DNA of 64,000 bases, from positions 1,054,001-1,118,000 of the forward strand of contig NC_012489.1 of assembly GCF_000010305.1 (NCBI RefSeq). Direction: 5' to 3'. A program made the translations under genes and the position numbers. Below, piece by piece: positions 51,501-62,065 of the stretch. A model generated the notes under the pieces. The model did no database searches. It was not told the origin of the DNA and was given only the letters and a program-made list of their open reading frames with translations. This DNA is from Gemmatimonas aurantiaca T-27. GTDB taxonomy: Bacteria > Gemmatimonadota > Gemmatimonadetes > Gemmatimonadales > Gemmatimonadaceae. Position 1 is the first letter of the stretch, and every line of letters starts with the position of its first letter.

Positions 51501-52487
51501 GTGCGGACTGTCCCCAATCTGGCCATCGTGAACTCCCCCACGCTCGATTCCCGCGTCACGGAACGGCGCAATCCCCGTACGGTCGACATCGACCTGGCGT
51601 CCCCGCTGGAGATCGTCGATCAGATCAACGCCGAAGATCGTCTGGTCGCCGACGCCGTGGCGTCGCAGCGCGAACCCATCGCCGAGACGATTGCACTCAT
51701 CGAGAGTGCGTTTCGCGCAGGGCGGCGGTTGCTGTACATCGGCGCGGGAACATCGGGACGCCTGGGGGTGCTCGACGCGAGTGAGTGTCCGCCCACCTTT
51801 GGCACCGATACCGGTATGGTCATCGGTATCATTGCCGGTGGTGATCGTGCGCTGCGCACACCGATCGAAGGGGCGGAAGACGATCCCGACGCCGGCGCGG
51901 CCGAAATGGACGCACGTGATGTGTCGCAGGGCGACGTGGTCGTGGGCATCGCCGCATCGGGCACCACGCCGTACGTGCGCGGCGCATTGACACGTGCGCG
52001 CGCGCTGGGCGCCCGCACGGCACTCATTGCCTGCACCGAACCGCCAGCCGCCATGCGCGCGGTGGCAGACGTGTGCATCCTGCCCATCGTCGGGCCGGAA
52101 GTGCTCACCGGTTCCACGCGCCTCAAGGCCGGTACCGCCACGAAGCTGGTGTGCAACCTGCTCACCACCGGTGCGATGATTCGCATCGGCAAGAGCTACG
52201 GCAACCTGATGGTCGATCTGCGTGCCACCAATGTGAAGCTGCAGGACCGCGCCGAACGCATCGTCATGGAAGTGACGGGCATTGCACGCGATGACGCGCG
52301 GGCACTGCTCACCGCCGCTGATGGTCGCGTCAAGCGCGCCCTCGTCATGCAGGCGCTGGGCGTGGACGCGGCCACGGCCGACGCACGGCTCGCGGCAGAA
52401 GGGGGTGTGATCCGTCGTGTGGTGCCCAATGCGCCGCCGCCGGTGACATCGGCCGTGACATCGTCAGCGGCCGAGCGCGCATCGTGA
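51501..52487 (+). CDS. murQ: N-acetylmuramic acid 6-phosphate etherase
   Basis: 328 residues. MurQ cleaves the lactyl ether of MurNAc-6-P to give GlcNAc-6-P and lactate. The SIS domain motifs YIGAGTSGRLGVLDASECPP-TF (with catalytic Glu), IAGGDRALR, GIAASGTTPYVRGAL and GSTRLKAGTATK are typical. Start GTG 51501, alternative GTG 51528. It overlaps anmK (GTGA). Confidence 0.96.
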   Translation: MRTVPNLAIVNSPTLDSRVTERRNPRTVDIDLASPLEIVDQINAEDRLVADAVASQREPIAETIALIESAFRAGRRLLYIGAGTSGRLGVLDASECPPTFGTDTGMVIGIIAGGDRALRTPIEGAEDDPDAGAAEMDARDVSQGDVVVGIAASGTTPYVRGALTRARALGARTALIACTEPPAAMRAVADVCILPIVGPEVLTGSTRLKAGTATKLVCNLLTTGAMIRIGKSYGNLMVDLRATNVKLQDRAERIVMEVTGIARDDARALLTAADGRVKRALVMQALGVDAATADARLAAEGGVIRRVVPNAPPPVTSAVTSSAAERAS

Positions 52488-53674
52488 CACAGCCCGCGCC
52501 GGACAACGGCGCGATTCTCGTCGGATTGATGTCGGGGACATCACTCGACGGGATCAGTGCCGCCGTGGTGCGCTTCAGCGAACCGGATGGTCGTGTGCGT
52601 GCCGACGTGTTGCACAGTACCCAGCATGTGTACGACACATCGGCCCGCGAGCGGTTGCAGCGCGCCATGCATGACGGCAGTGCCCGCGAGTATTGTCGCC
52701 TGTCGGCCGATCTGGGTGACTGGCTGGGCGATGCGGCGCTGGCGGCCATGCGTGGTGCCGGCGTGACAGCGCATGATGTGCGCGCCGTGGCATCACACGG
52801 TCAGACACTGTGGCATGAACCCGGTCACAGCACCTGGCAGATTGGTGATGCCTCCCGCATTGCCGAGCGCACGGGCTGTGCGGTGATCAGTGATTTCCGG
52901 GTGCGTGACATGGCGGTGGGCGGGCAGGGCGCCCCGTTGGTGCCGATCGCCGATCGCATGTTGTTTGCGCACCCCACCGCGTGGCGTGCGCTGCAGAATA
53001 TCGGCGGGATCGGCAATGTGACGCTGGTGCCACCGGGTGGCGGTGATGACCGCGACATCGTGCACGGCTTCGACACCGGCCCCGGGGTGGTGATCATCGA
53101 CGGAGTCACGCAGCGCTTGTTTGGCCTGCCGTTCGACCGGGATGCCGCCATTGCCGGGTCGGGGCGCATTCTCGAGCAGATCGTGCTCGAATTGCTCGAG
53201 CTGCCCTATCTGCGCGAAGCCCCACCCAAGAGCACGGGCCGCGAGCTGTTCACCCCCGCCTTCATCGACGCCTTCATTGCCCGTTGCACCGCGGCGGGTG
53301 GGGCACCGGCCGATATCGTGGCCACCGCCTGTGCGTTCACGGCGGCCAGCATCGGCGACCAGTACATGCGTTTCCTCACCGAAGCCCCCGCCGACGTGGT
53401 GCTTTCCGGGGGCGGCGCGCGCAACCCCTTCCTCGTGCGGTGCATCGAGGGGGCGTTCATGTGGCACGGCGAGCGTTCCGGGCGTCCCGTACCCGCCGTG
53501 CGCCTGTTCGACGACCTCTTTTTCGATGCCGAAGCCAAAGAGGCCGTGGCGTTCGCGTTGCTTGGTTATCTTCATCTCACTGGTCGGGCGGGCAACGTGC
53601 CCAGCGCGACCGGGGCGCGCGCGCCGCGTGTGCTTGGTGCGCTTACCCCCGTAGCCTCGAGTTTGACGTCATGA
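52484..53674 (+). CDS. anmK: Anhydro-N-acetylmuramic acid kinase
   Basis: 396 residues. Phosphorylates and opens anhydroMurNAc to MurNAc-6-P, the substrate of MurQ. ASKHA-fold motifs GLMSGTSLDGISAAVV, ASHGQTLWHEP, NIGGIGNVTLVP, GFDTGPGVVIID and VVLSGGGARNPFL are seen. Overlaps murQ and nagZ by four bases each (GTGA, ATGA). Confidence 0.96.
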   Translation: MTQPAPDNGAILVGLMSGTSLDGISAAVVRFSEPDGRVRADVLHSTQHVYDTSARERLQRAMHDGSAREYCRLSADLGDWLGDAALAAMRGAGVTAHDVRAVASHGQTLWHEPGHSTWQIGDASRIAERTGCAVISDFRVRDMAVGGQGAPLVPIADRMLFAHPTAWRALQNIGGIGNVTLVPPGGGDDRDIVHGFDTGPGVVIIDGVTQRLFGLPFDRDAAIAGSGRILEQIVLELLELPYLREAPPKSTGRELFTPAFIDAFIARCTAAGGAPADIVATACAFTAASIGDQYMRFLTEAPADVVLSGGGARNPFLVRCIEGAFMWHGERSGRPVPAVRLFDDLFFDAEAKEAVAFALLGYLHLTGRAGNVPSATGARAPRVLGALTPVASSLTS

Positions 53675-55152
53675 GCGAACAGTCGCGTCGCGACCTCGCA
53701 CAGCTTTTGCTGCCGGTCATCCGCTGGACCCCCGAGCGTGGTTTTGTCGAAGCCCGCCCTCTCATCGATCAGGCGCTGGCGCTCGGTGTGGGTGGATTCC
53801 AGCTCGTCGGCGGTGAGCAGGACAGCGTGCGCGCGCTGGCGAAGGAACTCCAGCTCAAGTCGCGCCACCCGCTGCTCATCGCGGCCGAACTGGAACGGGG
53901 AGCCGGACAGCAGTTCGCGAGTGCCACCGGACTGCCACCCCTCGCGGCCATCACCGCCCTCGGCGATATCGAATCGCTGCGCCGCGCGGCACGTCTCACC
54001 GCGCGTGAAGCCCGCACGATGGGCGTGAACTGGAATCTCGGCCCGGTGTGCGATCTCGACATGCTCAGCGAGAATCCGCTCATCGGCGCGCGTGCGCTGG
54101 GCAACGATGCCCGCAAAGTCGGGCAGTTGGTTGCCGCATGGATCGAAGCCTGCCAGGCGGAAGGCGTGTTGGCGTGCGCCAAACATTTCCCCGGCATCGC
54201 GCGGGTCACCACCGATCCGCATCGCGAGTTGCCCACGGTGGACACGCCGGCCGATCAGCTCAAGGAACTCGATCTGCATCCGTTCCGCGCCGCTATTGCT
54301 GGTGGTGTGGCCAGCATGATGACGGCGCATGTGTCGTATCCCGCGCTCGATTCGAGCCGAGAGCCGGCCACGCTGTCGCGCGAGATGTTGCAGTGGTTGC
54401 TCCGTCAGCAGCTCAAGTTCGACAACCTGCTGGTGTCGGATGCGCTCACCTTGCCCGCGGTCACTACCACTCGCACGGCGGCAGAAGCGGCGGTGCTCGC
54501 GTTGCGCGCCGGGTGTGATGTGTTGCTCGATCCGGGCGAACTCGAAGCCGCGCTTGGTGCGCTCGAGACCGCGCTCGACGATGGCACGCTCGATCCCGAG
54601 CGTGTGCGTCAGTCGGTGCGTCGCCGTCTCAAGTGGGCGCAGTGGGCGTCACCGCCGAATGACTGGCGTCGCCCGAGTGGTGCCGACACGGCGTGGGGCG
54701 CGTTGCTGGCCGACAAGGTGCTGCGTTTTGAACACGACCCCGTGCCGCCGATGGGTGCAGTCACGGAGATGGCCGTGGTGGATGACGATGACGATGTGCT
54801 GGGCCGTCGCGCCGATCGCACCGGCATCGTGGATGCGATGCGACTGGCCGGTAACGATGCCCGCATCGTCAGTGCGCCAACACCTGCCAGTGGTGGGCCG
54901 TTCGTGATCGCGCTGTTTGCCGACTATCTGCCCGGCAAGGGACGGCACACGCTGCGTCCCGATACGATCGCCGCCGTGAACACCCTGATCGAACAGGCGG
55001 AAGCGTTGCAGCGATCGGTGGTGCTGGTGGGGCTGGGCGATCCACGTTGGGTCACGCAACTTGGCATGACACACCCGACCATTCTGGCGTGGAGCGGCGA
55101 TCGGGTGATGCAGCAGGCCGCGGGTCGGGGATTGTTGAGGACCAAGCGGTAA
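53671..55152 (+). CDS. nagZ: GH3 beta-N-acetylglucosaminidase (NagZ-like), long form
   Basis: 493 residues with no signal peptide, so cytoplasmic. The GH3 TIM barrel (about 1-330) has GFQLVGGEQDS, NWNLGPVCDLDMLSENPLIG-AR, the NagZ motif at 171-190 (KHFPG...DPHRELPTV) and the nucleophile Asp in LLVSDALTLPAV. The family GHG after KHFPG reads GIA, an oddity. A C-terminal domain (about 340-493) makes it longer than E. coli NagZ (341), closer to two-domain relatives. It would free GlcNAc from GlcNAc-anhydroMurNAc-peptides, feeding anmK and murQ. Confidence 0.86.
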   Translation: MSEQSRRDLAQLLLPVIRWTPERGFVEARPLIDQALALGVGGFQLVGGEQDSVRALAKELQLKSRHPLLIAAELERGAGQQFASATGLPPLAAITALGDIESLRRAARLTAREARTMGVNWNLGPVCDLDMLSENPLIGARALGNDARKVGQLVAAWIEACQAEGVLACAKHFPGIARVTTDPHRELPTVDTPADQLKELDLHPFRAAIAGGVASMMTAHVSYPALDSSREPATLSREMLQWLLRQQLKFDNLLVSDALTLPAVTTTRTAAEAAVLALRAGCDVLLDPGELEAALGALETALDDGTLDPERVRQSVRRRLKWAQWASPPNDWRRPSGADTAWGALLADKVLRFEHDPVPPMGAVTEMAVVDDDDDVLGRRADRTGIVDAMRLAGNDARIVSAPTPASGGPFVIALFADYLPGKGRHTLRPDTIAAVNTLIEQAEALQRSVVLVGLGDPRWVTQLGMTHPTILAWSGDRVMQQAAGRGLLRTKR

Positions 55153-56493: not shown

Positions 56494-56559
56494 GAAGGGT
56501 TTTATCGAGAGGACGTTCCGAATGTGGCCTGCGTTTCGACATCGGCACAGATTCGGGGG

Positions 56560-58503
56560 ATGCGGAATCGTGCACCTTCCCGAATGTCCCCGGCGTTCGC
56601 CCTGGCCGGCGTGTGGCTGGCCGCCTGCAGCACACCTCCGGCGCCAGCCGCACCGCCGCCTGCGCCCGCCTCCATGGCACGTACGGCGCCCCCGGTGGTG
56701 GCCGGGCTGCCAGCCGTGCCGGCAGTGCGCGGCGCACGGGTCGCCATCAGCGTGCGCTATCCCGCCGACAATCAGGTACTGACGAGTCGAGATTCCAATT
56801 TCGTACTTGGAAGTGTGGGATCGGGTGACGCCTCGCTGACGGTGAATGGTGCATCGGTACCGGTCGCGCCCAATGGGGCCTTCCTCGCCTGGCTGCCCAT
56901 GCCCACGGCTGCGGCCCCGCGGTATGAACTGCTGGCCGTGCGTGGTGCCGATACGGTGCGGCAGACACTGCGTGTGCGCCTACCCGTGCGCACGGCCCTG
57001 CCGGCCACCGGTCGTCTGCGTGTGGACAGCGCATCCCTCACCCCGGGGCGTGGATGGTGGATGCGGGGTGACGATCTCACCCGCGTCAGCATCCGTGCCC
57101 CACGCAACGCACGCGTGACACTGCTGGGGCGTGACAGCGTGGTGCGCACCCTCGTGATCGGCACCGGCGCTGCGGCCGGCGATCCCACCACATCCGCCAA
57201 CCAGACCGCCGACTCATCGACCGACGCCTCGGCGATCTTTGCCACCGATCTGGCGGCGGCGCTGCTTGGCGATAGCGCGCGCCCGGCCCGCGTCATGGTG
57301 ACGCGGGGAAGCGGCCGTGAGCGCGACAGTGTGTCACTTGCTGTGCCATTTGTTCGTGTGCTGCCCGTCACATCGCGCCTGCTCGCGCAACTGCGCAATA
57401 CCGGCACCGTGGGCAGTGACACCGACCGGGTGGTGAATGCCCGGACCATCGTGGGCGGCACCTACAAGTGGTTGCTGCTGCCCGGCACGGTGCTGGAAGT
57501 GACCGGTCGGCAGCAGGGCTTCACGCGGCTGCGTCTCGATGGGCAGCTCGATGTGTGGGTGGAGTCGTCCGATCTCACCCTGTTGCCGGATGGCACCGCG
57601 TTGCCGCGTCGTGTGACCGGTGGCCTGCGAGTGACACCCGCTGCCGAATGGGCCGACCTGTCCATCGCTACCGGGGAGCGGCCGGCCCACCTCGTGGAAG
57701 CCGAAGGACATACCATCACGCTCACGTTGTACGGCGTGCAGGCCAATCCGGAAATCTCGCCGATCTTTGGCAACGACACGCTCATTCGTCGCATTGCCTG
57801 GGATCAGGTGGCGAACGATCGGGTGCGGGTCACGCTCACGCTGTCACAGCCGGCCTATGGTTGGCTGTCGCTGTGGGACAATGATCGACGGGCCTTTGTG
57901 CTGCGGGTGCGTCGCGTGCCGAAGATCGATCGCACCAATCCGCTGCGTGGCATCACCATCGCCGTGGACCCGGGGCATCCGCCCGTGGGGGCCACGGGTC
58001 CGACGGGTCTTTACGAAGGGGATGCCGTGTTTCCGGTGGGCATGAAGCTGGTGGAGATGCTCAAGGCCCGCGGTGCCAATGCCTTCAGTACGCGCAACAG
58101 TCTTGCCGCGGTGGGACTCACCGATCGTGGTGTGATTGCGCGACGGGCCAACGCCCATCTGTTCATCTCCATTCATCTCAACGCGCTGCCTGATGGCGTG
58201 AATCCGTTCACGGCCAACGGCACCAGCACACTGTTCTTTCACAATGCGAGCGAACCGCTGGCCCGTTTCACGCAGGATGAACTCATGCGACGCTTCGGCC
58301 TGCGTGATCTGGGGGTGCACTACCAGAACCTCGCCGTGGCGCGTCCGAGTTGGTATCCGAGCGCATTGGCTGAGGGACTGTTTCTGATGTTGCCCGAGCA
58401 GGAAGCAGCCATGCGTGACGAAGGCTTCCAGCGCAAATACGCGGAAGCGCTGCTGGTGGGTGTGGAGCGCTATCTCGCGTGGTTGGGCGAGGGCGGTCGG
58501 TGA
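56560..58503 (+). CDS. N-acetylmuramoyl-L-alanine amidase (Amidase_3) lipoprotein
   Basis: 647 residues. Signal with lipobox GVWLAAC, then an Ala/Pro linker, a beta-rich region (about 60-450, possibly SH3-like near WLLLPGTVLEVTGRQQGFTR) and the catalytic domain from about 464: IAVDPGHPPVGATGPTG (His473 at zinc), LYEGDAVFPVG (Glu), LFISIHLNALPDGVNP and a terminal LAEGLFLMLPEQEAAM Glu. It cuts the MurNAc-L-Ala bond in the periplasm. ATG 56560 is chosen for the signal peptide; GTG 56524 and ATG 56584 are alternatives. It overlaps the next gene (GTGA). Confidence 0.88.
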   Translation: MRNRAPSRMSPAFALAGVWLAACSTPPAPAAPPPAPASMARTAPPVVAGLPAVPAVRGARVAISVRYPADNQVLTSRDSNFVLGSVGSGDASLTVNGASVPVAPNGAFLAWLPMPTAAAPRYELLAVRGADTVRQTLRVRLPVRTALPATGRLRVDSASLTPGRGWWMRGDDLTRVSIRAPRNARVTLLGRDSVVRTLVIGTGAAAGDPTTSANQTADSSTDASAIFATDLAAALLGDSARPARVMVTRGSGRERDSVSLAVPFVRVLPVTSRLLAQLRNTGTVGSDTDRVVNARTIVGGTYKWLLLPGTVLEVTGRQQGFTRLRLDGQLDVWVESSDLTLLPDGTALPRRVTGGLRVTPAAEWADLSIATGERPAHLVEAEGHTITLTLYGVQANPEISPIFGNDTLIRRIAWDQVANDRVRVTLTLSQPAYGWLSLWDNDRRAFVLRVRRVPKIDRTNPLRGITIAVDPGHPPVGATGPTGLYEGDAVFPVGMKLVEMLKARGANAFSTRNSLAAVGLTDRGVIARRANAHLFISIHLNALPDGVNPFTANGTSTLFFHNASEPLARFTQDELMRRFGLRDLGVHYQNLAVARPSWYPSALAEGLFLMLPEQEAAMRDEGFQRKYAEALLVGVERYLAWLGEGGR

Positions 58504-61478
58504 CCGTACGATCGCTGCGGCTCGCGTGGTGGTGCGTGGTGGCCTTGTGGTGCACCATGACCTGGTCGGTACGGGTCGAGGCGCAGAGTGACCCGCGCGG
58601 CCCGGTGCGCACCATCGTCACGCCACATCTGCGGGTGCACTACCAGGCGGCGCTCGATTCACTGGCTCGACAGACGGCCGTGATTGCGGAGCGCGCATAT
58701 GCGCAACTGGCGCTGGAGTTGACACCACCGTCGGGGCGGATCGATCTGCTGCTCACCGACAACATGGACAACAGCAATGGCTTCGCGCAGGTGTTCCCCA
58801 CCAATCGGGTGACCATTTTTGCGGTGCCACCGGTGGGCATGCGTGAGTTGCGCTTTCACGATGCCTGGTTGCCGATGGTCATCTCCCATGAACTCGCGCA
58901 CATCTTTCACATTGATCGCGCTCGTGGACTGTGGCGCGCCGGCCGCTGGGTGTTCGGACGCAATCCGCTGTTGTTTCCCAATGCCTTCCTGCCCAGTTGG
59001 GTGAAGGAAGGGCTGGCCGTGCACTACGAAAGTGCGCTCACCGGCAGTGGGCGCCTCGAAGCCACCGAGTTCCCCGGTTATGTGCGTGCGGCCGTCATGG
59101 ACAGCGCCTGGGTGCCACCATCGCGCTGGAGCATGGCCACCACGCGATTCCCGCGTGGGCAGGGCGCGTATGCGTATGGCAGTCTGCTCATGCAGCACGG
59201 GGTGGCGCAGCCATCTGGCAGCATGCGCGCGTTTGTCGACGCCACGTCTTCGTATCCCATTCCCTATCTGCTTTCGCGCGCGTCACGCATCGGCTTTGGC
59301 AAGTCGTTCGACGAGATGTACCGCGACATCCGCGATTCGGTGGCCCGTTCGGCGCCCTCTCGCGCCGGGGATTCGGCATGGACCGAGGTCAGTACCGAAG
59401 GTTGGCATGCCTCATCGCCACGGTGGCTCACCACCGATTCGCTGGTGTGGAGTGCCAACACCGGCTACGAAGTATCGGGGCTGTACATGGCCCCCGCTCG
59501 TCGTGGTGCGCAGCCCGAGCGCATGGCCTGGCGCAATTCGCTCGATGTGAATGTGCCGCAGGGTGGGGATGTGGTCTTCGCGCAAAGTGATCGCCGGGAT
59601 CCGTACACCATCCGCAGTGATCTCTATCGCCGCGATCGCGCCACCGGTGAAGAAGTGCGTCTCACGGATGGCGCGCGCCTGTTCATGCCGGATGTTCGCC
59701 GAGACGGTGCGGTGATCGCTGTGCAGGTGGGCGCCAATGCCAGTCAACTGGTGCGGGTATCGCGCGAGGGTGAGGTCACACCATTCACGGCAGAGAATCA
59801 TGGCGAGCGCTGGGCCGAGCCTCGCTGGTCGCCCGATGGTGCGTTCATCGCCGCGATTCAACTGCTCACCAACGGCGAACAGCGCGTGGTGGTGCTCGAC
59901 TCCACCGGGGCGCTGCGTGTGGCGGTGGCCGGCATGCGGGCCGTGTTCGAAAGCCCATCGTTCACACCAGACGGTCGGCGATTGGTGTGGAGCAGCGATC
60001 GCAGCGGGCGTATGCAGATCGAAACGGCGCCACTGCGCACCGATGTCATCGACACACTGGCCTGGCGCGACGAACGGGCTCACGTCACACAAGCGAGTCA
60101 GGTGAGCACGGCCGTGTACGAGCCCAGTGTATCGCCCGATGGTCGTCAGGTGGCCGCGTTGCTGTTCCGCGCCGACGGCAATCACGTGGCCATTGCGGCG
60201 CTCGATACCACGGGACCGATGGCCCGTTCGCAGTGGTATCCTCGCCGCAACACCGTCGCGATTCCGTCCGTGAGCGATTCGGCGCAGTTGGTATCGGCAC
60301 CATCGTCGGCGTATCGCGCCTGGCGTCAGCTTGTGCCGCGCTATTGGCTGCCGCAGGTGGGCGAAGGGCGTGATGGTCGCATGACGGTTGGTGCCAGCAC
60401 CAGTGGTGTGGACATCCTGGGTCGGCATGCGTGGAGTGCGTCGGCGCTGGTGCAGCCCGGCTACCGCGAAACCGATGGTCATCTGTCGTATCGATTTGCC
60501 GGACTCGGTGTGCCGCTGTTCGAAGCCAGCCTCTCGCAGGAGTGGGACGGTTCTTTTCGCAATGTGTCGTCCACCGGTGCCACGCTGGGATTTGTGGCCC
60601 GTCGTCGCCGGTTTGCATCGGTGGCCAGCACCTGGACCGTTCCCCGTGTGCGGCGCACGATGAACACCACGCTGGGCGTGCGATACGAAATGCGTCAGTT
60701 CTTTGCCGATGTGGATTCGGCGTTGGGACCGGCCAACTCGTCGCTGCGTGGGGGGACGCGTTATCCGTCGGTGTTTCTGAATGGCAGCCTGTCCACGGCT
60801 CGTATGGCCGGGCGTGGGGTGTCTCTCGAAGAAGGTTTTGCGTTGGCGCACAACACGACGTACCGGTGGCGCGAGGATGCACCGGGTGCCACGGGATCGT
60901 GGCGTACGGTGATCAATGCGCGTGGCTATGTACCACTGCCGCTGCCGGGATTCTCACGTCATGCGTTGGCCATACGCACCACGGCCGGCATCGCCGATAT
61001 CAAGAGCGGATCCGACTTTGGCGTGGGCGGGGTGAGTGGCGTGAATGCGGAGCTGATGCCTGGAGTGATCATCGGTGATCCGTCGCGTTCATTCCCGGTG
61101 CGTGGTGTGGCGCCGGATGTGCAACGAGGGATTCGTGCGTTGGGCAGCAGCGTGGAATATCGCGCGCCGCTGGTGATGTTCAGCCGCGTGCCCAGTCCGT
61201 TCACGGTGTATACCGATCGGGCGTCGATCGTGCTGTTCAGCGATGCGGGACGGGCGTGGTGTCCATCATCGCTGGCCGCCACCGGCACGATTGTGTGCAA
61301 TCGGGTTGGGGAGCGTGATGGATGGATCGCGTCCGCAGGTGCGGAGCTCGTGCTGGATATTGCGGTGCAATACGACACGCCGTATCGCGTGCGGATTGGG
61401 GGAGCGGCGCCGTATGTCGCGCCGGCGGGTGTACGGCGGGGAGGGGCGTTTTATGTGTCGCTTGGGGGGTATTTCTGA
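58500..61478 (+). CDS. Fusion: gluzincin-like peptidase, TolB-like propeller, Omp85-like barrel
   Basis: 992 residues. A signal peptide (LAWWCVVALWCTMTWSVRVE-AQ) is followed by a peptidase-like domain with HELAH at 130-134 and WVKEGLAVHYE with Glu170 as the third zinc ligand, the M1/gluzincin arrangement. Residues about 270-600 show WD40/TolB-like blades (EPRWSPDGAFIAAIQL, ESPSFTPDGRRLVWSSDRSG, YEPSVSPDGRQVAALLF). From about 640 a barrel-like region ends with DPSRSFPVRGVAPDVQRGIR, ALGSSVEYRAPL, VLFSDAGRAW and a final Phe (YVSLGGYF), the Omp85/BamA-style VRG and last strand. GTG 58500 overlaps the amidase. Confidence 0.75.
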   Translation: MTVRSLRLAWWCVVALWCTMTWSVRVEAQSDPRGPVRTIVTPHLRVHYQAALDSLARQTAVIAERAYAQLALELTPPSGRIDLLLTDNMDNSNGFAQVFPTNRVTIFAVPPVGMRELRFHDAWLPMVISHELAHIFHIDRARGLWRAGRWVFGRNPLLFPNAFLPSWVKEGLAVHYESALTGSGRLEATEFPGYVRAAVMDSAWVPPSRWSMATTRFPRGQGAYAYGSLLMQHGVAQPSGSMRAFVDATSSYPIPYLLSRASRIGFGKSFDEMYRDIRDSVARSAPSRAGDSAWTEVSTEGWHASSPRWLTTDSLVWSANTGYEVSGLYMAPARRGAQPERMAWRNSLDVNVPQGGDVVFAQSDRRDPYTIRSDLYRRDRATGEEVRLTDGARLFMPDVRRDGAVIAVQVGANASQLVRVSREGEVTPFTAENHGERWAEPRWSPDGAFIAAIQLLTNGEQRVVVLDSTGALRVAVAGMRAVFESPSFTPDGRRLVWSSDRSGRMQIETAPLRTDVIDTLAWRDERAHVTQASQVSTAVYEPSVSPDGRQVAALLFRADGNHVAIAALDTTGPMARSQWYPRRNTVAIPSVSDSAQLVSAPSSAYRAWRQLVPRYWLPQVGEGRDGRMTVGASTSGVDILGRHAWSASALVQPGYRETDGHLSYRFAGLGVPLFEASLSQEWDGSFRNVSSTGATLGFVARRRRFASVASTWTVPRVRRTMNTTLGVRYEMRQFFADVDSALGPANSSLRGGTRYPSVFLNGSLSTARMAGRGVSLEEGFALAHNTTYRWREDAPGATGSWRTVINARGYVPLPLPGFSRHALAIRTTAGIADIKSGSDFGVGGVSGVNAELMPGVIIGDPSRSFPVRGVAPDVQRGIRALGSSVEYRAPLVMFSRVPSPFTVYTDRASIVLFSDAGRAWCPSSLAATGTIVCNRVGERDGWIASAGAELVLDIAVQYDTPYRVRIGGAAPYVAPAGVRRGGAFYVSLGGYF

Positions 61479-61532: not shown

Positions 61533-61570
61533 GGGAACGACACGGCACTTCGAAGGCACGGGGAAGACAG

Positions 61571-62065
61571 ATGGCGAAGGCGTTTATTCATGACACGGCG
61601 GTTGTGCTCGGCGAGGTGGTGCTTTGCGAGGACACCAGTGTTTGGCCGACGGCGGTTATTCGGGGGGATGTTGAGCGGATCACCATTGGCGCACGCAGCA
61701 ACGTGCAGGATGGCGCGGTGATTCATGCGGATCCTGGAAAGCCGACCATTGTTGGCGAGGACTGTGTGATCGGGCATCGCGCGGTGGTGCATGGCACGGT
61801 GCTCGAAGACGGTGTGCTGGTGGGCATGGGCGCGGTGCTGCTCAACGGCGTGCGCGTGGGCACGGGGAGCATCATTGCGGCCGGCGCGGTGCTCACGGAG
61901 GGCACACAGGTTCCGGCGGGCTCGCTGGTGGTGGGCATCCCAGGGCGGGTGGTGCGGGCGCTTGATGCGGAACAGCGGGGGAAGATTCTCGAGAACGCGG
62001 CGCGATATGTGGAATTGGCGCAGCGGCATCGGGGTGGAGCGGTTCGTCGGGTGAGATCCGACTAG
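61571..62065 (+). CDS. Gamma-carbonic-anhydrase-family (hexapeptide repeat) protein
   Basis: 164 residues. A left-handed beta-helix of hexapeptide repeats (VLCEDTSVWPTAVIRGDVER-ITIGARSNVQDGAVIHADPG, VGEDCVIGHRAVVHGTVLED) with the three zinc His at VIHAD, IGHRA and VVHG. Relatives (YrdA/CaiE type) bind zinc; carbonic anhydrase activity is not certain. ATG 61571 is the natural N-terminus; the reading from 61520 adds a non-homologous leader. Confidence 0.9.
   Translation: MAKAFIHDTAVVLGEVVLCEDTSVWPTAVIRGDVERITIGARSNVQDGAVIHADPGKPTIVGEDCVIGHRAVVHGTVLEDGVLVGMGAVLLNGVRVGTGSIIAAGAVLTEGTQVPAGSLVVGIPGRVVRALDAEQRGKILENAARYVELAQRHRGGAVRRVRSD

Follow-up and report, generated by a model that had tools for sequence, protein, structure and literature searches.

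The locus examined here raises the question of what a single polypeptide that combines a peptidase, a propeller and an outer-membrane barrel might do directly downstream of a murein amidase. The window, i.e. the whole stretch of 64,000 nucleotides analysed from Gemmatimonas aurantiaca T-27 (NC_012489.1, positions 1,054,001 to 1,118,000), holds the reading frame in question at 58500-61478 on the + strand, with a GTG start, a TGA stop and 992 residues. Of 184 stop-to-stop frames of at least 150 residues in the window, five contain HExxH, and this frame alone also has a downstream W..EG. A chance frame or frameshift artefact is ruled out, as the homologues are full length. The initial annotation had placed peptidase, propeller and Omp85-like barrel in one polypeptide, and this is borne out by structural matches and by an AlphaFold2 model of the full protein, built from an alignment of 71 sequences (mean pLDDT 90.2, pTM 0.90). 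As modelled, the single chain consists of a signal peptide, a zinc-peptidase fold, a TolB-type propeller and a BamA-type barrel, with the following features.

58500..58583, + strand: Sec signal peptide (hydrophobic N-terminus), predicted cleavage between VEA and QSD after residue 28
58584..59360, + strand: zinc peptidase domain (gluzincin, clan MA), residues 29-287 (AlphaFold2 model and structural matches)
58887..58901, + strand: HELAH zinc motif, residues 130-134
58998..59012, + strand: WVKEG, residues 167-171, with Glu170 as third zinc ligand
59169..59171, + strand: Tyr224, candidate transition-state tyrosine
59361..60218, + strand: TolB-like beta-propeller, residues 288-573 (PD40 and TolB HMMs, structural match)
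60324..61475, + strand: Omp85/BamA-type 16-strand barrel, residues 609-992 (AlphaFold2 strands, BamA match)
61098..61106, + strand: VRG motif, residues 867-869, in the long loop between strands 11 and 12
61149..61172, + strand: SVEYRAPL, residues 884-891, in strand 12
61242..61250, + strand: DAG, residues 915-917, at the end of strand 13 (alignment, AlphaFold2 strands)
61473..61475, + strand: terminal Phe992, as is typical of outer-membrane barrels

Residues 1-28 have low pLDDT in the model, and an AxAQ consensus is common to the relatives.

The identity of the N-terminal module follows from fold and conservation rather than from family profiles. Folded alone, residues 29-292 yield a model (pLDDT 88.7, pTM 0.88) that matches gluzincin structures (Foldseek E 6e-5), with Z 15.7 to M30 lugdulysin (7bb8) and Z 13-15 to M1 aminopeptidases and LTA4H. 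HELAH and the glutamate of WVKEGLA, both noted in the initial annotation, are present as described, so that HExxH and a downstream Glu lie within a gluzincin fold, separated from His130 to Glu170 by 40 residues in 55 of 71 relatives. Since two of the three profile search patterns behind this wider, profile-found set contained HExxH / W..EG motifs, conservation was judged first on 29 orthologues from a whole-protein similarity search free of motif bias. His130, Glu131, His134, Glu170 and Tyr224 are kept without exception in these (29/29) and equally in the wider set (71/71), the outcome of a conservation check that the initial annotation had proposed; the candidate role of Tyr224 is taken from M1 and M30 enzymes. 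Mean identity among the relatives is 45% in the peptidase, compared to 35% in the propeller and 36% in the barrel, and 17 of the 34 invariant residues fall in the peptidase. Conservation is highest in the peptidase, which speaks against its being a dead domain.

Pfam alone misses the peptidase and gives only a hint of the barrel. In the Pfam scan, this protein has no match to Peptidase_MA_2 (PF13485), and a profile of the peptidase domain finds no solved relative by sequence. The commonest weak Pfam matches among the relatives are zinc-peptidase families of clan MA type, with weak Peptidase_MA_2 matches in 22/70 (E up to 0.5, best 6.4e-6). The earlier label "Peptidase_M1-like" holds for the fold, which is near M1 and M30 structures, but not beyond it, as the GxMEN exopeptidase motif of Peptidase M1 is absent from the protein. 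Membership of the M1 aminopeptidases was therefore dropped, and endopeptidase action appears likelier than M1-type aminopeptidase action.

The central module was likewise correctly recognized as TolB-like blades: the region matches PD40 (Pfam E 8.8e-13) and the TolB HMM (E 4.9e-12), and its model superimposes on E. coli TolB (1crz) with Z 25.6 and 2.5 Å over 234 residues. TolB shares this propeller fold but occurs free in the periplasm and has an N-terminal domain of its own, unlike the fused propeller described here.

Structure prediction, proposed earlier as a check of the C-terminus, gives a barrel that matches BamA structures. Its 16 strands, counted back from the C-terminus of the AlphaFold2 model, span residues 617-988, and the comparison to D. 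radiodurans BamA (8xnb) yields Z 21.6 over 317 residues at 4.5 Å. All the sequence marks listed in the initial annotation are found, i.e. the VRG-type motif (R868 and G869 invariant in 71/71), SVEYRAPL (E886 and P890 invariant), DAG and the terminal Phe, which ends 70 of 71 relatives, the other being a gap at this position. The location of VRG between strands 11 and 12 corresponds to loop 6 of BamA, so that the protein has both the 16-strand barrel and the loop 6 motif of the Omp85 superfamily. Profile searches support this in part: PD40 is matched, and homologue L097 exceeds the Pfam Omp85 cut-off (36.2 bits), but the protein itself scores 15 bits, below the cut-off of 24. No POTRA domains were detected in the Pfam scan, and according to models and structural matches the residues preceding the barrel comprise peptidase and propeller only. 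The claim of an Omp85-type barrel that carries these two modules instead of POTRA domains hence stands, and BamA/TamA membership was dropped. Two cysteines, at residues 921 and 933 (window 61260-61298), lie in the loop that joins strands 13 and 14 and is predicted to face outwards; of the 71 relatives, 41 keep the first and 37 the second, and the pair could form a surface disulfide.

The same genome encodes a separate full-length TolB-like protein, as well as other Omp85 loci that match the Omp85 family far better. The protein studied here therefore probably replaces neither.

Which process the protein may serve is suggested by the surrounding genes.

51501..52487, + strand: MurQ, N-acetylmuramic acid 6-phosphate etherase (TIGR00274 over cut-off)
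52484..53674, + strand: AnmK, anhydro-N-acetylmuramic acid kinase (NF007148 over cut-off, PF03702)
53671..55152, + strand: NagZ-like glycoside hydrolase family 3 (PF00933 E 1.3e-61; NF003740 below cut-off)
56524..58503, + strand: Amidase_3 N-acetylmuramoyl-L-alanine amidase with lipobox LAAC, upstream partner (Pfam E 1.1e-25); real start probably 56584
61568..62065, + strand: hexapeptide-repeat, gamma-carbonic-anhydrase-like gene, downstream (profile matches)

An antisense PP2C gene lies between the NagZ-like gene and the amidase, and a B12-dependent ribonucleotide reductase follows the carbonic-anhydrase-like gene. The amidase stop overlaps the start of the peptidase–barrel gene in GTGA, confirming the coupling to a murein amidase read initially; many relatives have an overlap of this NTGA type, and among the 65 relatives whose upstream sequence is long enough, 45 have the amidase as the immediately preceding gene. 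A simple pattern finds a lipobox-like Cys in 32/49 amidase homologues. At least one of amidase, MurQ, AnmK or NagZ occurs within 8 kb in 41/48 relatives, a raw count without a random-locus control, drawn from related genomes that are not independent. Such neighbours favour a function where wall and membrane meet.

An obligate partnership with the amidase was dropped, as each gene is found without the other. Homologues that combine the three modules are present in the majority of Gemmatimonadaceae: counted from tables of whole-protein similarity, strong matches (E below 1e-60) occur in about 64 of 99 genomes. Roughly one third of the sampled members lack the gene, mostly with the amidase retained. 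Full reading of two such lineages shows the carbonic-anhydrase-like gene or the reductase immediately after the amidase. At the Gemmatimonadaceae loci L125 and L130 (also L127 and L128 by position), this amounts to the clean gain or loss of one gene, and the gene seems to be acquired or lost whole. Conversely, genus g23 (G023, G070, G087) has the peptidase–barrel gene without a close amidase, and more remote relatives do not have the amidase next to it. Hence, the two need not form a tight functional pair.

The gene is widespread in Gemmatimonadota: in the sample of this phylum, most of family f5 has it, and f7 and f10 give weak matches only. A profile scan of genome contigs located relatives where a single-sequence scan had given none; full-length three-module proteins are scattered in genomes filed as Acidobacteria and Latescibacterota, and two contigs with relatives are labelled Gammaproteobacteria and may be misbinned. 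Plasmids gave no match. The G. aurantiaca genome also holds a paralogue at L042:4315-7449 on the minus strand (about G000:C1:1431314-1434448), with HEMVH, WFMEG, PD40 repeats and an Omp85 C-terminus. Within the barrel its frame is interrupted by a tandem repeat of two perfect 79-bp copies (L042:4469-4627), with the barrel continuing near G000:C1:1430920-1431531; this is either a real disruption or an assembly error.

Based on domain folds, barrel topology, residue conservation and gene context, which are all supported by calculation, we propose with moderate confidence that the protein is an outer-membrane-anchored, periplasm-facing zinc endopeptidase that would cut proteins or peptides at the wall–membrane interface alongside the amidase. 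The chain would be secreted by Sec, and the C-terminal Omp85-type barrel would fold into the outer membrane, with the TolB-like propeller underneath holding the gluzincin domain between outer membrane and peptidoglycan. The periplasmic orientation is that of Omp85 N-terminal domains in solved members. His130, His134 and Glu170 are the predicted zinc ligands and Glu131 the predicted base, and Tyr224 probably stabilises the transition state. Working alongside the co-expressed lipoprotein amidase, the peptidase would probably cleave proteins or peptides exposed where wall turnover meets the outer membrane. The safest statement is that of a putative outer-membrane-anchored zinc peptidase facing the periplasm.

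The main rival is quality control as by BepA, with barrel and propeller engaging unfolded outer-membrane proteins and the peptidase removing stalled ones. In E. coli, the periplasmic Zn-peptidase BepA works on LptD at BAM (PMC8423444), propeller-Omp85 fusions are likened to BamA plus BamB in PMC4104836, and the barrel here matches BamA. We nevertheless consider this role unlikely, as POTRA domains are lacking, the neighbours are wall-recycling enzymes and not bam or lpt genes, and the gene is patchily present. The lack of POTRA domains, together with the stronger Omp85 matches elsewhere in the genome, also weakens the insertase part of the suggestion in the initial annotation that the protein may process or insert surface proteins during wall growth, here read as an Omp85-type insertase or translocase with an accessory or client-trimming peptidase; the Omp85 fold with its invariant VRG would suit such a function, but the best conserved part is the peptidase, leaving it a small chance.

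It is very improbable that, in a PlpD-like arrangement, the barrel instead helps the peptidase to be positioned or released extracellularly. PlpD has an enzyme domain ahead of an Omp85 barrel (PMC4104836), but the linking propeller is well folded in a high-confidence prediction and thus hard to thread through a pore, and there is no evidence of cleavage. If the protein only anchored the amidase passively in the outer membrane or served as its scaffold, the peptidase being no more than a binding domain, this would be consistent with translational coupling to a lipoprotein amidase. Such a role can hardly be reconciled with the invariance of all catalytic-type residues, or with the occurrence of either gene without the other, and we regard it as the least credible reading.

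A periplasm-facing zinc endopeptidase on an outer-membrane barrel is of interest since there is little functional data on non-POTRA Omp85 proteins. With its enzyme module conserved, the catalytic residues intact and wall-recycling genes recurring nearby, the protein offers this class a concrete activity that can be tested, and a hint of how upkeep of outer membrane and wall may be connected in a diderm phylum other than Proteobacteria. More tentatively, the protein could represent an Omp85 subfamily not yet recognised, its active gluzincin, TolB propeller and BamA-type barrel forming a one-chain protease that couples outer-membrane and peptidoglycan maintenance, a possibility that we rate below even.

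Compared to known systems, the peptidase shares with M30 lugdulysin (7bb8), M1 aminopeptidases and LTA4H the catalytic fold, HExxH with a downstream Glu, and the candidate Tyr (Z 13-16), but it has its third ligand 40 residues after the first His, lacks GxMEN and is fused to propeller and barrel. The barrel resembles those of BamA and Sam50 (8xnb, 9mge) in its 16 strands, VRG in loop 6 and C-terminal Phe (Z ~20-22), but differs in having only ~15% identity and no POTRA domains. BepA, in contrast, is a separate protein of another peptidase family, M48, and has a TPR domain. Like our proposed enzyme, it is a periplasmic zinc peptidase at Omp85 machinery (PMC8423444).

The closest precedent is the WD40-Omp85 subfamily, described in 2014 by Heinz and Lithgow (PMC4104836), in which a TolB-like propeller precedes an Omp85 barrel without POTRA, as is the case here, where the propeller directly precedes the barrel. 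The protein may already be a listed member, and this published class limits its novelty. The initial view that the three modules are normally separate hence holds only in part. The text of PMC4104836 is silent on a peptidase domain ahead of the propeller and on Gemmatimonadetes, which is no proof of novelty. A search of the open-access literature found no paper on the peptidase-propeller-Omp85 architecture. PF00149 is a metallophosphatase family. The Omp85 group containing it, termed 'metalloproteases' in PMC4104836, should not be confused with the gluzincin peptidase of this protein. Beyond the WD40-Omp85 class, the present analysis adds the peptidase module, together with how well it is conserved and which genes surround it.
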